Shown here piece after piece: positions 5,476 through 23,397 of a DNA stretch of 23,397 bases. The stretch covers positions 1 to 23,397 of IMG/VR virus record IMGVR_UViG_3300043773_001871. One strand, given 5' to 3'. Origin of the DNA: a virus. Numbering within the stretch: position 1 is the first letter of the stretch; the number at the start of each line of letters is the position of its first letter. The position numbers were made by a program, and so were the translations under genes. The notes under the pieces were generated by a model. That model ran no database searches and had not been told where the DNA came from. It worked only from the letters and a program-made list of their open reading frames with translations.

Positions 5476-7080
5476 TTACTCCGTGATTGTCACTCTTGTC
5501 CTGCAAATCAAATCGGGGATCGGGGGAACCACTCCCGGAAACTTTTCGAAGCATGTAAATGTGACTTCAAATACCGCATAAAATGGAACGCATGTTGATT
5601 CAATCAAGACGCCCTGAATTCCATTTACCGTTAAGACACCGACCTGCTCAATTAAATCAGAATTTGACTCTGAACCAGACGCAGAATCTTCTTCGTAAGA
5701 TCCACACAGATATTCGATGCTTTCCAGCTTCATAAAGTTTCTTGCTGTGTCGCATTTGATTTCAGTTTCAGGATCATATCTCCAATTGCCTCGCTCATTA
5801 CCTGGCAGGCAATCCACCTTCGCCAATTCAACACTGAACGTGCATGGCGCACAGTCACAGTCCATGACTTCAAAGGTAGCAGTCACAGCAAGTGGTTGAT
5901 CTTCGCAAAGGATGTCGCAGCAAGGTGCTGGTGGCGGAGGAGGTGGCTCACACGGATCTGCACAGTCTTTTATAGAGCATGCCCTGATGATAAACCATTC
6001 AACCGGAGGACATGATACGTCTGGGTTTAATGGCAGTCTGAATGGGACTTTTGCAATGATGACACGTTCACAAACTTCCAAGTCATCGATCCCACACGCC
6101 TCAGCGTCAACTTCATCAATGATCTCATCTGCTTGAGATGTGCATGGATCAATATCATGAGGATCTGAGTATATCAGGATGCGATAACTACAACCTCCAC
6201 ACATTTCCAGTGGGCCAGTATTGACGACGACTTCAAGCCGACAAAGCGATCCTCCTTGAGCGGCACATAAAGAAAGAGAAGCCTCATCGCTTGCGCTCAA
6301 ACTTTCGCTTGAACTTTCGCTTAAACTATCGCTGTTTTCGCAAATACATTCTTCTGAGAATTCGCCTGGATATGCAACTCCATTACATGAAGTAATAGGT
6401 GCGCAGCAGTCAATCGAAACGATTTCTTCGACAGGAGACCCGCAAACGCTGATTAGCCAGTCCGCTGGATCATTAAGTTCCGATCCTGATTCTGCGCTGC
6501 ACCCAACAGTGATTCTCATCGGGTTTTCTGGGTCGCACTGATTTCCATTTATTCCGCGAAGAACAAACTCGTCACAGGCTCTGTAGTCACCACACAAGCT
6601 GGGAGTTACAGAAAGGATCCTTGCAAACAATTTTGAATTTTGCGGAGTCATTCCGCAACACCGGCAACCGTTGCTAGTTGATGTCACTCCCCCTGTAAAT
6701 GAAGTTGACCTAACTCTCAGTATTTGCCATTTGCCGTCAATTTTACCAACGATGCATTCTGCTTGAATGTCTGTCGATATCGTATAGTTGCAATTCAGAA
6801 CACATCCGTAAGCCTCAATTGGATTATCGATCGGATCAATGGGAGTTGTGACAGTGCGGACGTTTCCCCCTATGTTTCGTATGTCGTTGAATTTTGATCC
6901 AATCCCATTGTCGCCACATACGTGTAACGGCCAATACTGATTGTCAATCATTGCCAGCAACAACATTAACCCAGTTGGATCTGCGGCAGGGTTGATTGAC
7001 ACACCAGTAAAAGCACCTTCGACACCGACGATTATCTCATCGCCAACGTCTGTGTTTATTCCGCATCCCTCGTTCATCAT
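5476..7080 (-). CDS. cysteine-rich tail tip or fibre protein
   Basis: This is a 534-aa protein with about 41 cysteines spread along its whole length, many in pairs or CxC groups (NGCRCCG 138-143, ECICEN 244-249, MCGGC 293-297, CDCAPC 408-413). A Ser/Glu/Asp-rich spacer lies at 250-270 (SDSLSESSSESLSASDEAS), a shorter one at 465-474, and a polyproline run at 379-385. The pattern suggests several small beta domains joined by flexible linkers, stabilised by disulfides or metal. At the DNA level the first Ser spacer is a decayed 12-bp tandem repeat near 6297-6334. The start overlaps the previous stop as ATGA. Position downstream of the tape measure and two other tail-tip candidates suggests a distal tail, receptor-binding or fibre role. 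No enzymatic motif was found. Confidence 0.7.
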   Translation of the reverse strand: MMNEGCGINTDVGDEIIVGVEGAFTGVSINPAADPTGLMLLLAMIDNQYWPLHVCGDNGIGSKFNDIRNIGGNVRTVTTPIDPIDNPIEAYGCVLNCNYTISTDIQAECIVGKIDGKWQILRVRSTSFTGGVTSTSNGCRCCGMTPQNSKLFARILSVTPSLCGDYRACDEFVLRGINGNQCDPENPMRITVGCSAESGSELNDPADWLISVCGSPVEEIVSIDCCAPITSCNGVAYPGEFSEECICENSDSLSESSSESLSASDEASLSLCAAQGGSLCRLEVVVNTGPLEMCGGCSYRILIYSDPHDIDPCTSQADEIIDEVDAEACGIDDLEVCERVIIAKVPFRLPLNPDVSCPPVEWFIIRACSIKDCADPCEPPPPPPAPCCDILCEDQPLAVTATFEVMDCDCAPCTFSVELAKVDCLPGNERGNWRYDPETEIKCDTARNFMKLESIEYLCGSYEEDSASGSESNSDLIEQVGVLTVNGIQGVLIESTCVPFYAVFEVTFTCFEKFPGVVPPIPDLICRTRVTITE

Positions 7081-20451: not shown

Positions 20452-20484
20452 AAAAAACGCCTGAGGTTACTTCTCTTTCCTCAG
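20452..20484 (-). terminator. terminator overlapping the terL stop
   Basis: On the minus strand CTGAGG (20484-20479) pairs with CCTCAG (20466-20461) around a 12-nt loop that holds the terL TAA stop, then GCG and six T (20457-20452) follow. The stem is only 6 bp, so termination is likely partial and may depend on whether ribosomes are clearing the stop codon. Confidence 0.55.
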
Positions 20485-21900
20485 ATTCTCCCAGTATTCC
20501 ATCTCATATCGCGGCAACTGAGTACACATCGCCAATGCATCCGGCCCGTCGTCGTGTTTCCCGACGCCCGGGATGCCGTCGAACTGCTTAATCTGCTGCA
20601 GCAAAAGCGTCGTCCCCGGATTCTCGAGGAACCGGAACTCTCTCTGCGTCAGTCGCTTGTCCAGCCCTCGACGGATTCTCATTTCCTTCTTCAGCATGTC
20701 CTCGACCGGAATTATGATCCCCCCGGACATCAAATATTTCGACAGGGCATAGTCCGGGTGATTCGCCGCGTAGTTCATGATCAAGTCGCGGAAAATACTC
20801 TGGAACTGCGTCGATTCAATCCCAATCAGGTCGCCTGATCTGATCCGGTGATGATCCTGATCGCAGAACAGGAATAAGTCTTCGATGATCTCCGACGGCG
20901 ATCGTCGTTTTAAGTCAGCATCGACATACGCCAGTTCTGACGTTTGTGCCATGCAAACAATCGCCGAATAGTCACCCTTCTTGACGCAGCGCCCCTTGCT
21001 TGGGTCGACGCAGAACATTCGGACAATGTCGTTGGCGTGTTTCGGGACGGGGAACTTCTCGAGCGGGATGTAAATATCCGTAAACAACTCGCGGTCCCAC
21101 TCGGCGCCCGTCTTCGACGACACCAACCAGCAGCCGTTCAGGAAGCGGTCTCGCTCGTCTTCTGACATTGCCTCGAGTCGTTGGCGATATGTCGGGTCGG
21201 ACTGCATCAAGTGAGTGTTGTCTCGCAGTGTCGCGCCGATGAATGTCGCGGATGTCGAAACACACTCGTTCTCGCCGGTTTCTTCGTTGATCTCGTAGTG
21301 CGGCTCGTCGTACCAGTGAAAATCCGGTTCGACGTACCGGAAATGCCGAATAACTCCTGATCGCTCAGGTATCGGCAGGCCCGTCTCCGGTGAAAGCCAC
21401 CAGTACAGAAAACGATAGAGAAACGAATCGTTATCCGGATTGCAGGATAACTTCATACGGGGCTGGATCCCGGATTTCGATCTACAGCGACCCCAGAGGT
21501 ACTGTACGAACTTCAGAGGCCACTGTGTCGCCTCGTCAATTGCCAATGCGTCAAGCTGGGCTCCCTGATAGTCCTCAAGGTTCTTTTCGAACTGACAAGA
21601 CCCCAGAGCGATCTTCGCCCCGCACGGAAACTCGAACTCGTTGCGAGTATGATTGTAAATCGCACCATAAGGCCGATACATCTCCTTGCAGTGATCCAGC
21701 AGGGCTCCTGACTTGGTCAACTGCGGATAGGTTCGACGCATGATCAAACCACGGAACAACGGATTCGCATGCGGCCCCTGACAATGCCTGAGCATGTCGA
21801 GCGTCACAATGTGGCTCTTCCCGGAACCTGCTGCGCCGCCATAAATCAGCCACTCGGCAGGCGATTGCAGGACGCGGTATTGTGGATCAGAGAGTTTCAT
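20467..21900 (-). CDS. terL: terminase large subunit
   Basis: This is the ATP-driven DNA packaging motor with a nuclease domain, 477 aa. N-terminal ATPase: Walker A GGAAGSGKS (residues 21-29), Walker B LDALAIDEA (116-124, acidic pair IDEA), coupling motif around KLSCNPD (about 150-156). C-terminal RNase H-like nuclease: MFCVDPSKG with Asp299, then KKGDYSAIVCM, a middle acidic LIGIES, and a late HDDGPDALAM block. These are hallmark residues of TerL. The ATG at 21900 is preferred; a TTG four codons upstream (21912) is possible. Neither has a strong ribosome site, and a terminator hairpin lies just upstream, so terL may be made at low level. The small terminase was not identified. Confidence 0.95.
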   Translation of the reverse strand: MKLSDPQYRVLQSPAEWLIYGGAAGSGKSHIVTLDMLRHCQGPHANPLFRGLIMRRTYPQLTKSGALLDHCKEMYRPYGAIYNHTRNEFEFPCGAKIALGSCQFEKNLEDYQGAQLDALAIDEATQWPLKFVQYLWGRCRSKSGIQPRMKLSCNPDNDSFLYRFLYWWLSPETGLPIPERSGVIRHFRYVEPDFHWYDEPHYEINEETGENECVSTSATFIGATLRDNTHLMQSDPTYRQRLEAMSEDERDRFLNGCWLVSSKTGAEWDRELFTDIYIPLEKFPVPKHANDIVRMFCVDPSKGRCVKKGDYSAIVCMAQTSELAYVDADLKRRSPSEIIEDLFLFCDQDHHRIRSGDLIGIESTQFQSIFRDLIMNYAANHPDYALSKYLMSGGIIIPVEDMLKKEMRIRRGLDKRLTQREFRFLENPGTTLLLQQIKQFDGIPGVGKHDDGPDALAMCTQLPRYEMEYWENLRKEK

Positions 21901-21917
21901 TCGAACACTCAATAAAC

Positions 21918-21953
21918 AAGCAGCCAGCGACTCGGGGGAATCGCTGACTGCTT
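21918..21953 (-). terminator. hairpin terminator upstream of terL
   Basis: On the minus strand AAGCAGTCAGCGA pairs with TCGCTGGCTGCTT (13 bp, one G-U pair) around a 10-nt loop, followed by GTTTATTG. The T-run is imperfect. It lies between the 88-aa gene and terL and would reduce read-through into terL, or protect the terL 5' end. Confidence 0.55.
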
Positions 21954-21963
21954 TCGGGGAGAA

Positions 21964-22230
21964 TTACTCGGTGACGTTTGCGACAGTGATCTCAGGATCG
22001 TCCAGTGATCGCGCGGTCATCGAACGGACACTCTGGTCAACCCGAAACCTCGGCTGATCAATGCTTACACCCGTAATCGTCGCCTTCACGTCCGAGGACG
22101 GACGACCTCGCTTTTTCTCGGACTGCATCTGAGTCAGCAGTGCAAATGCTGCTGTCCTCGCAATCGACTCGGAATCCGCGTTCTGAACGTCACACTCGAC
22201 GTTAATCCTGAAACGAAACTGCTTCGACAT
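21964..22230 (-). CDS. 88-aa protein with AT-hook-like KKRGRP
   Basis: This protein is a strand-helix unit (KQFRFRINVECDVQ, then SESIARTAAFALLTQMQSE) followed by KKRGRPSSDVKATITGVSI. KKRGRP resembles an AT-hook minor-groove motif. The C-terminal half is strand-rich (RFRVDQSVRS, EITVANVTE). AAGGA lies 6 nt before the ATG. It sits just upstream of terL, where a small terminase is usual, but no helix-turn-helix is evident, so I leave the function open. A DNA-binding role is a fair inference from the motif alone. Confidence 0.6.
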   Translation of the reverse strand: MSKQFRFRINVECDVQNADSESIARTAAFALLTQMQSEKKRGRPSSDVKATITGVSIDQPRFRVDQSVRSMTARSLDDPEITVANVTE

Positions 22231-22258
22231 TTCTGATCCTTCGGCTTGTGGTTGTTGT

Positions 22259-22278
22259 GTTTCACGACGCTGTGAAAC
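22259..22278. other. 7-bp inverted repeat between two small genes
   Basis: GTTTCAC and GTGAAAC are perfect complements around a 6-nt loop, in the 56-nt gap between the secreted 94-aa gene and the 88-aa gene. No T-run follows. It could be an operator or mRNA hairpin. Confidence 0.4.
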
Positions 22279-22286
22279 CTGATGAA

Positions 22287-22571
22287 CTAACGCCCGATTC
22301 TACACGCCTTGCATCGTGTTCGCATCCCAATCACATCCCCAGACGCATTCCGCAGGTAAACCCCGTCGAATGTGACGGATGGTGCTGCGGTTTTCTCAGT
22401 CGTCTTTTTGCGGACCACAGGTGGTTTTTTTATTTTCGGTGGGGCCGGCGGCGTCGGCGCAACTGACTCCATCGCTGCGAAATACCTGTCGGCAAACGCA
22501 GGGTCAGCCGAGAATGTGATTCGGCTTGTGGCTGTGGTGAGCAAGATGAGAGCGAGGAATATCCGGATCAT
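22287..22571 (-). CDS. secreted 94-aa Pro/Lys-rich protein
   Basis: The protein starts MIRIFLALILLTTATSRITF, a hydrophobic signal-peptide-like segment with a likely cleavage near FSA/DPAF (about residue 22). A Pro/Lys-rich spacer follows (PTPPAPPKIKKPPVVRKK), then a short strand unit (SVTFDGVYLRNASGDVIGMRT) and a CKAC pair at the end. The ATG at 22571 overlaps the stop of the 68-aa gene as ATGA, which settles the start; a longer reading from 22727 duplicates that gene's region. The spacer recalls TonB-like periplasm-spanning segments, but no other TonB feature is present. Function unknown; an envelope role is likely. Confidence 0.65.
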   Translation of the reverse strand: MIRIFLALILLTTATSRITFSADPAFADRYFAAMESVAPTPPAPPKIKKPPVVRKKTTEKTAAPSVTFDGVYLRNASGDVIGMRTRCKACRIGR

Positions 22572-22774
22572 CGCTGGACTCCTGAACTGTCGATTGTGAT
22601 GGTTGTGTTTTGCGGAATGTAAACGCCATGCAACGGACATGCGTTCGCATGAATGAACCGACGCAGATTCGGCGTGTTCGTCGATACGCCGTTGCCCTGG
22701 TTGTTCATCGAGATCGGGCAGAGACAACCTGCCGCGATTGCTGCGGGGGAACCGGGGTTGGATATTGGGATCAT
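22568..22774 (-). CDS. 68-aa Cys/His protein (CxCP...CPxHG)
   Basis: This small protein has GCLCPISMNNQGNG (16-29) and NACPLHGVY (44-52). The CxCP...CPxH spacing suggests a zinc-binding site made of three Cys and one His, similar to a pattern I associate with small phage proteins of unknown function. Both ends are coupled: ATGA overlaps with the 74-aa gene upstream and with the secreted 94-aa gene downstream. No enzymatic motif was seen. It is probably a cytoplasmic metal-binding protein. Confidence 0.65.
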   Translation of the reverse strand: MIPISNPGSPAAIAAGCLCPISMNNQGNGVSTNTPNLRRFIHANACPLHGVYIPQNTTITIDSSGVQR

Positions 22775-22995
22775 TCTTTCCTCACTAACTCGAAGACCGC
22801 TGTCTCCTGCTTGTCACTGATGAAATCGCCGTTCTCCGCGATGTCACAGAAGAACTCGGCTGTCACCGTTACCGGATCAGTCGACGCAAAATCCAGATTG
22901 ATCTGCATCTTCGTAATGTGCTGAGGTAAGTTCGCAAAGTGCGGTGAGATTGCCCTGAAGAACTCGTGCGATGACATCAGGCGGATGATGGACAT
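22771..22995 (-). CDS. 74-aa protein, first gene of the visible late operon
   Basis: The protein has an N-terminal helical part (IIRLMSSHEFFRAISPHFANL) and strands (MQINLDFAS, PVTVTAEFFCDIAENGDFI, TAVFELVRKE). It has AAGGA 8 nt before the ATG and its stop overlaps the next ATG as ATGA. It is the first gene after the repeat region, so any promoter for this operon should lie just upstream. The family is not recognised. Confidence 0.65.
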   Translation of the reverse strand: MSIIRLMSSHEFFRAISPHFANLPQHITKMQINLDFASTDPVTVTAEFFCDIAENGDFISDKQETAVFELVRKE

Positions 22996-23143
22996 AATTG
23001 GGATCCTTGTTGATGGAAGTAGAAGTGTAGACGAAATATTGGAGAAATGGAACGCAAATTTGTTTTTTTATTTTTGGAGTAGTTGAGTGACAGCGTTAAT
23101 GCCCCCATTGCCGCCCCTACGATTTCGTCGATAGTTCGAACTC
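22996..23143 (-). promoter_or_regulatory. AT-rich leader with possible late promoter
   Basis: This gap separates the tandem repeats from the first gene. It holds an A/T-rich run at 23060-23077 (T-rich as printed). On the minus strand TACACT (a fair -10 word, about 23029-23024) follows a poor -35 word TTCCAT at 17-nt spacing. It is placed correctly for the operon promoter, but the -35 match is weak. A phage-specific sigma factor or activator could be needed. Confidence 0.28.
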
Positions 23144-23305
23144 GATCACCGCTGCAGCCCGATCACCGCTGCAGCCCGATCACCGCTGCAGCCCGATCAC
23201 CACTGCAGCCCGATCACCGCTGCAGCCCGATCACCGCTGCAGCCCGATCACCGCTGCAGCCCGATCACCTCTGCAGCCCGATCACCGCTGCAGCCCGATC
23301 ACCGC
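23144..23305. repeat. 17-bp direct tandem repeat array (nine full copies plus 9 bp)
   Basis: The unit is GATCACCGCTGCAGCCC. Nine full head-to-tail copies run from 23144 to 23296, then GATCACCGC (23297-23305). Seven copies are identical. Copy 4 (23195-23211) and copy 8 (23263-23279) each differ only at base 8, to A and T. Each unit has GATC and the palindrome CTGCAG, within GCTGCAGC in most copies. The period is not a multiple of three and no frame across it is convincing, so it is probably non-coding: iterons, a packaging-initiation site or a simple intergenic repeat. Confidence 0.9.
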
Positions 23306-23311
23306 CGGCGC

Positions 23312-23346
23312 ACAAAAAAACGCCGTCCACAATGTGGACGGCGTTT
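23312..23346 (-). terminator. strong intrinsic terminator of an upstream minus-strand gene
   Basis: A perfect 13-bp stem (AAACGCCGTCCAC with GTGGACGGCGTTT) has a 3-nt loop (23331-23333). On the minus strand it is followed by a run of T that begins inside the stem's end (23320-23314). It would stop transcription arriving from beyond the right edge. Two short frames run from the edge to stops at 23362-23364 (TAG) or 23366-23368 (TGA); one is probably the end of that upstream gene, but I cannot decide which. Confidence 0.85.
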
Positions 23347-23397
23347 CCGTTGTTCCGTCGTCTACTCAATAATCTGGCAGAAACCGCTCGCCATTGC

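Follow-up and report, generated by a model that had tools for sequence, protein, structure and literature searches.

A GC-rich tandem array whose unit differs among related phages at a fixed site ahead of the late operon

The window, the whole stretch of DNA that was analysed, is a 23,397-base linear virus record carrying genes for the terminase large subunit, portal and tape measure on its minus strand. Read along this strand, a GP88 gene is followed by a terminator, a tandem array, a conserved block, a promoter-like stretch and the late operon. The array lies ~1.2 kb upstream of the terminase large subunit (TerL) gene. The features are as follows.

23362-23397, minus strand: 3' end of a GP88-like (PF17338) gene, 11 codons, cut by the window end
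23314-23346, minus strand: intrinsic terminator, a hairpin then a minus-strand T-run, closing the upstream operon (fold -32.3 kcal/mol, z -4.16)
23143-23305, minus strand: tandem array with a 17-bp unit, GGCTGCAGNGGTGATCG in the late sense; 9 full units and a partial one
23111-23142, minus strand: conserved block beside the array, late-sense consensus CATCGAATTCGAACTATCGACGAAATCGTAGGGGCGG (15-contig alignment, 11 distinct sequences)
23024-23076, minus strand: promoter-like stretch of the late operon, with an A-tract at ~23060-23075 and TACACT at 23024-23029; largely conserved in relatives
22771-22995, minus strand: first late gene, 74 aa, without a confident family (families tested on the relative L003:2051-2275)
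20467-21912, minus strand: terminase large subunit gene (phrog_979, E 4.1e-87; PF03237)

GP88 is the last gene of the operon upstream of the array. Translated on the minus strand, the final 36 bases of the window give ...AMASGFCQIIE, which by eye is the end of the GP88 protein of the relative G015. The PF17338 assignment was made on another relative, G026; a family search of the window returned nothing for the GP88 fragment, a piece of only 11 codons. The hairpin at 23314-23346 was not listed by a generic terminator scan of 21900-23397, but we call it a terminator because of its fold and because the same hairpin and T-run are present in the relatives spanning the site. The terminator that an earlier note on this DNA had placed upstream of the array was thus confirmed. 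The promoter-like stretch is without a good -35 and a generic promoter scan gave no minus-strand site; we infer that it is the late-operon promoter. Between the first late gene and TerL, an 88-aa protein (21964-22230, minus strand) was matched in all 18 typed contigs compared, partially in some. It contains a KKRGRPSS stretch that we take to be AT-hook-like.

Tandem Repeats Finder reported 23143-23305 as the single array at the site (period 17, 9.6 copies, 97% matches, score 312). We then scanned the whole window with CGATCACCNCTGCAGCC, allowing up to 3 mismatches, and found 9 units at 23143-23295 and no further match. In 100 dinucleotide-preserving shuffles the mean number of matches was 0.32 and the maximum 2, so that 9 was never reached. 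Two units are variants, with A at 23202 and T at 23270, and both changes fall at the same unit position. The earlier note had described nine near-identical units with two variants at one base, and this was confirmed; of the extent that it gave, 23144-23305, the end stands and the start moves by one base to 23143. The array is real and phage-borne. Its units lie head to tail in one locus, in the window as in the relatives, as those of a minisatellite (variable-number tandem repeat, VNTR) do.

To compare the site among relatives, we collected contigs with a 24-base pattern of the unit, terminase searches and flank searches. This gave 32 related viral contigs: the window (G000), G001-G026, L066, L067, L069, L070 and L074. 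The 24-base pattern itself occurs in two other viral contigs, G001 and G002, so that, as the earlier note had proposed to check, related phages do carry the same 17-bp unit at the same site. L069, L070 and L074 were found by flank only; their terminase protein is 63% identical to that of the window and their DNA 85-94% identical to other contigs over 2.3-8 kb. An exact 20-mer of the conserved block was found in 16 viral contig stretches. Searching the viral contigs with a GP88 profile brought in no further member. No DNA match to 22950-23397 was found among 50,697 phage records, and none to 23130-23320 among 72,556 plasmid records (BLAST, low-complexity filter on). TerL matches 1483 phage records, every one below 60% identity. 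One in-frame TAA was seen in the matched terminase stretch of each of G018 and G019.

The site was reached in 21 of the 32 contigs, including, probably, G018, and 19 of the 21 have a tandem array there. It is spanned in ten (G000, G002, G005, G007, G008, G011, G015, G017, G020 and G026) and, in G021, visible at either end of the contig. A further ten start inside the array (G001, G003, G004, G006, G016, G018, G024, L069, L070 and L074), and the remaining 11 stop short of the site. The G018 array is separated from a degenerate conserved block by a minus-strand gene, so its position at this site is only probable. Since G001/G002, G003/G004, G007/G008, G011/G026 and L069/L074 are near-identical pairs, the independent count is ~16 sites, 15 of them with arrays. 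The G011 and G021 contigs each overlap themselves by 126 bp; both genomes (G011, 55.7 kb) are thus apparently circular and complete.

The site is fixed in these phages: on one side is the terminator of the GP88 operon, on the other the conserved block of ~30 bp that precedes the late operon. Lineages whose flanks are still recognisable differ in their unit. Its period is 8, 17, 26, 27 or 43 bp, and the sequences fall into about eight types.

T1, 17 bp: window, G001, G002; a variant in G016
T2/T2b, 26 or 27 bp: G003, G004, G017
T3, 8 bp: G005, G021
T4, 27 bp, distinct in sequence from the other 27-mers: G006, G015, L070
T5, a third 27-mer: G007, G008
T6, a different 17-mer: G018
T7, a fourth 27-mer: G020, G024
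T8, 43 bp: L069, L074
T5-short, 51 bp only, ~1.4 copies: G011, G026

Copy number, which the earlier note had suggested comparing, differs between relatives with an equal unit: in assembled counts, T1 has 9.6 copies in the window and 13.5 in G002, and T5 has 15.6 in G007 and ~1.4 in G026. The short form of G011 and G026 shares 36 of its 51 bp with the G007 array, so that a near-unexpanded form of the array exists. We consider a collapsed array in G011 unlikely because 51 bases are fewer than the 126-base self-overlap of its ends. With only 51 bp in two near-identical relatives, one of them apparently circular, the array looks dispensable. Pattern searches of IMG/VR with units T3, T4 and T7 returned contigs of this group only, with one exception: an unrelated phage contig has 3.4 copies of the 8-bp GCCTCCGG (L083:5772-5798), apparently between genes, which is a chance match.

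We then compared the array type with the DNA on either side. Over the 1,600 bases that begin with the conserved block, G002 and G005 have 5 differences (99.7% identical). Their arrays are unrelated, with 17-bp and 8-bp units, and their upstream GP88 genes are 76% identical. Identity thus changes sharply at the site, as at the module boundaries of mosaic phages. Similarly, different 27-bp units stand beside 320 bp of downstream DNA that is 98.4% identical between G015 and G024. Conversely, the leaders of contigs with the same unit are 54-78% identical for T4, 65% for T7, 55% for T3 and 90% for T1, and the GP88 genes of G005 and G021, both with the 8-bp unit, are 65% identical in DNA. Equal units beside diverged leaders and unequal units beside near-identical DNA mean that the array type is not tied to the late leader; it is uncoupled from the downstream DNA. 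The T4 unit is equal in L070, G006 and G015 despite the 63% identity of the L070 terminase protein to that of the window. That T4 and T7 persist on backbones that have diverged could reflect transfer as well as constraint.

The earlier note had proposed that the array could be a protein-binding platform for packaging, replication or late gene activation. A conserved site of this kind finds no support in the relatives, in which terminase DNA is 78-94% identical yet other units stand at the same place, or in G011 and G026, near-identical contigs with only ~1.4 copies. A packaging start site (pac or cos subsites) would suit a position beside the terminase genes, and in 11 of the 21 contigs the sequence does stop within the array, of which 82-200 bp remain. 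Such a site is expected to be conserved with its terminase, but in G000, G003 and G005, whose terminase DNA is 94% identical, the units are 17, 26 and 8 bp long and different. In addition, ten contigs run through the site, and short-read assembly yields contig ends in tandem arrays anyway. We read the ends in the array as assembly breaks, to which the self-overlaps of G011 and G021 also point, and consider a packaging site very unlikely. For an iteron origin several repeats would be expected; the apparently circular G011 has only 51 bp at the site, and a second array, described below as array B, could be the origin instead.

The alternative offered in the earlier note, a host intergenic repeat of variable copy number lying at the edge of a prophage, is hardly credible. 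The 24-base pattern was matched in none of 84,980 species genomes (contigs of at least 3 kb, a set from which the host may be absent), the TerL profile finds no relative in those genomes, and phage genes lie on the far side of the array in the relatives. We found no point in favour of a host repeat.

The late-site units are 67-88% GC, compared with 52-54% for the contigs. Variants within an array recur over several copies; in G017, for example, one position has 11 C to 9 T in 20 units. Such recurrence is as predicted for block copying. Among 12 units (8 late-site types and 4 from array B), 16 of the 66 pairs have a common word longer than in composition shuffles (p≤0.05), with ~3 pairs expected and p values given without multiple-test correction. 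The common words fit common descent and would also fit a common recognition vocabulary.

Other roles for the repeated sequence were considered and rejected. For a hairpin or structural role, 14 tiled units compared with shuffled ones gave z from -1.84 to 0.82 and no consistent signal, and only the G017 unit reached 0.04 in the folding test. For a known RNA, the one Rfam match inside the array has E 0.89, far below the gathering score. For a coding role, an open frame does run through the array, because a 17-bp period opens all frames alike, but the units of relatives are 8, 26 and 43 bp.

Clear intergenic arrays are confined to two places in both apparently complete genomes, the late site and array B, ~2.5 kb upstream of the late-site array; a 19-mer is further repeated 2.3 times at 30.5 kb in G021. 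Relative to TerL, array B extends from -5029 to -4484 in G015 and from -4265 to -4118 in G026 (L016, L060). It consists of a 17-bp GC-rich array and AT-rich palindromic 24-mers around TTGTATTAATACAA, followed in G015 by another GC-rich array. Array B is a candidate replication origin or operator. By eye, a sequence resembling the G015 repeat is present once at array B of G026, which gives a second hint of expansion in place. The 111-aa gene before array B was considered as a small terminase but had no PHROG or Pfam match and was left unnamed; a structure model of its product was too poor for use (mean pLDDT 45).

Exchange boundaries are places where homing endonuclease genes sit, and AP2 domains prefer GC-rich DNA, as stated in the part of Barth et al. 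2023 available to us (PMC10448857). The array might be a target or by-product of an HNH-AP2 homing endonuclease, with GC-rich repeats expanding during break repair near the terminase. HNH-AP2-like genes, which match phrog_99, adjoin array B in three contigs (G026, G011 and G021). In G021 one also follows the late array, and a search of the 32 contigs placed one before the terminase in 15 of them. The G026 protein scores above the Pfam cut-off for HNH_3 and just below it for AP2. However, the window, G002, G005, G007, G018 and G020 have arrays and gave no HNH-AP2 match on their available sequence, and we regard this explanation as unlikely. In L028/L060 and others, HNH-AP2-like genes lie directly before TerL and before array B.

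The main rival explanation is that the array is bound by a sequence-specific protein, as an iteron or upstream activator, and that this reader changes with the unit type. The array has a fixed site ahead of an operon, T4 and T7 units are equal across diverged backbones, and T1 variation is confined to one of 17 positions in all 28 full units. A precedent may be found in the lambdoid phages, whose iterons differ in type together with their origin-binding proteins, according to the accessible part of PMC8022706. A 129-aa gene, separated from the array by GP88, provides the strongest hint of a reader, though it rests on one pair: the T3 genomes G005 and G021 have a divergent allele, 85% identical mutually and 59-71% to the other eight contigs compared, and GP88 itself is 71% in G005 versus G021. 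Against a reader, the T1, T2b, T4, T5, T5-short and T7 contigs have similar 129-aa proteins (78-94%, identical pairs apart), G011 and G026 have only ~1.4 copies, and the structure model of the 129-aa protein is of too low quality (mean pLDDT 56) for a DNA-binding fold to be recognised. We consider a bound array possible, at odds well short of even. Its more specific form, in which the unit of each lineage would be read by a lineage-specific form of a phage protein (the 129-aa product being a candidate) and array and reader would be exchanged as cassettes at the module boundary, seems to us rather doubtful. If true, recognition types would bar a phage from making use of the late or packaging region of its relatives.

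Our preferred explanation, to which we give a probability of roughly one half, is that the array is a GC-rich minisatellite expanding in place at a phage module exchange boundary, with types swapped via the conserved block. New arrays would arise when a short sequence already at the site is amplified by slippage or unequal recombination. Whole array types could then be swapped between phages by crossovers in or near the conserved block. The spacer would tolerate such changes because it is probably transcribed from neither side, lying after a terminator and before a promoter, and the 17-bp sequence itself would be no required signal. The site would be a fast-changing module junction able to take inserts, such as the extra small genes found beside the array in G005, G021 and G018; G005 and G021, with the 8-bp unit, share a small-gene context before the array. 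Several observations weigh against a minisatellite. The restriction of clear intergenic arrays to two places in the apparently complete genomes implies that something about these places matters, constraint explains the equal T4 and T7 units as well as transfer does, T1 variation is limited to a single position, and a shared recognition vocabulary would equally account for the common words.

Bacterial minisatellites likewise consist of head-to-tail units and show turnover of copy number and of variants. In contrast to these VNTRs, the unit itself, beyond its number, changes between relatives here, at one fixed phage site. We class the array with the minisatellites, at a boundary between phage modules, the unusual part being unit replacement at a fixed site. 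Among the literature matches listed, which include few subscription papers, unit replacement of this kind in phages is undescribed, which is weak evidence of novelty.

Three known systems are similar in part, as far as the available portions of the sources describe them. The lambdoid origin iterons (lambda O, P22 and L gene 18) are the nearest precedent for type-differing repeats, being likewise short direct repeats at a homologous place; they sit inside the gene of their binding protein, while the arrays here are intergenic, without a known reader, range from 1.4 to ~27 copies and can be nearly absent (PMC8022706). The boundaries of Barth et al. 2023 also have exchange breakpoints near the terminase and HNH-AP2-like genes nearby, but are marked by nuclease genes, whereas the boundary here is marked by an array and a short conserved block, also where no nuclease gene is seen (PMC10448857). 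Cluster O mycobacteriophages have a 17-bp repeat with no known function, whose copies show signs of having recombined; their repeats are dyads scattered genome-wide and conserved in the cluster, in contrast to head-to-tail units at one site where the unit is replaced (PMC4351075).

At a fixed phage site where the unit is replaced between relatives 99.7% identical over the adjacent 1.6 kb, one can measure how fast and by which route non-coding DNA turns over in phages. Such a site also calls for caution, since arrays beside terminase genes, seen in one genome alone, give no basis for a pac or iteron call. It would account, too, for the many contigs of the group that end at one point in short-read assemblies.

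Among other features of these genomes, no tRNA genes were found in G021 or G011, and two structural-region proteins without assigned function (144 and 406 aa) had no match in plasmids or phages. The window has a 12-bp repeat at 6290-6333, inside a gene for a Ser-rich protein (5476-7080, minus strand). Long runs of 12- and 15-bp repeats were observed in G001, G011, G014 and G026, at about +14.7 to +15.4 kb from TerL.
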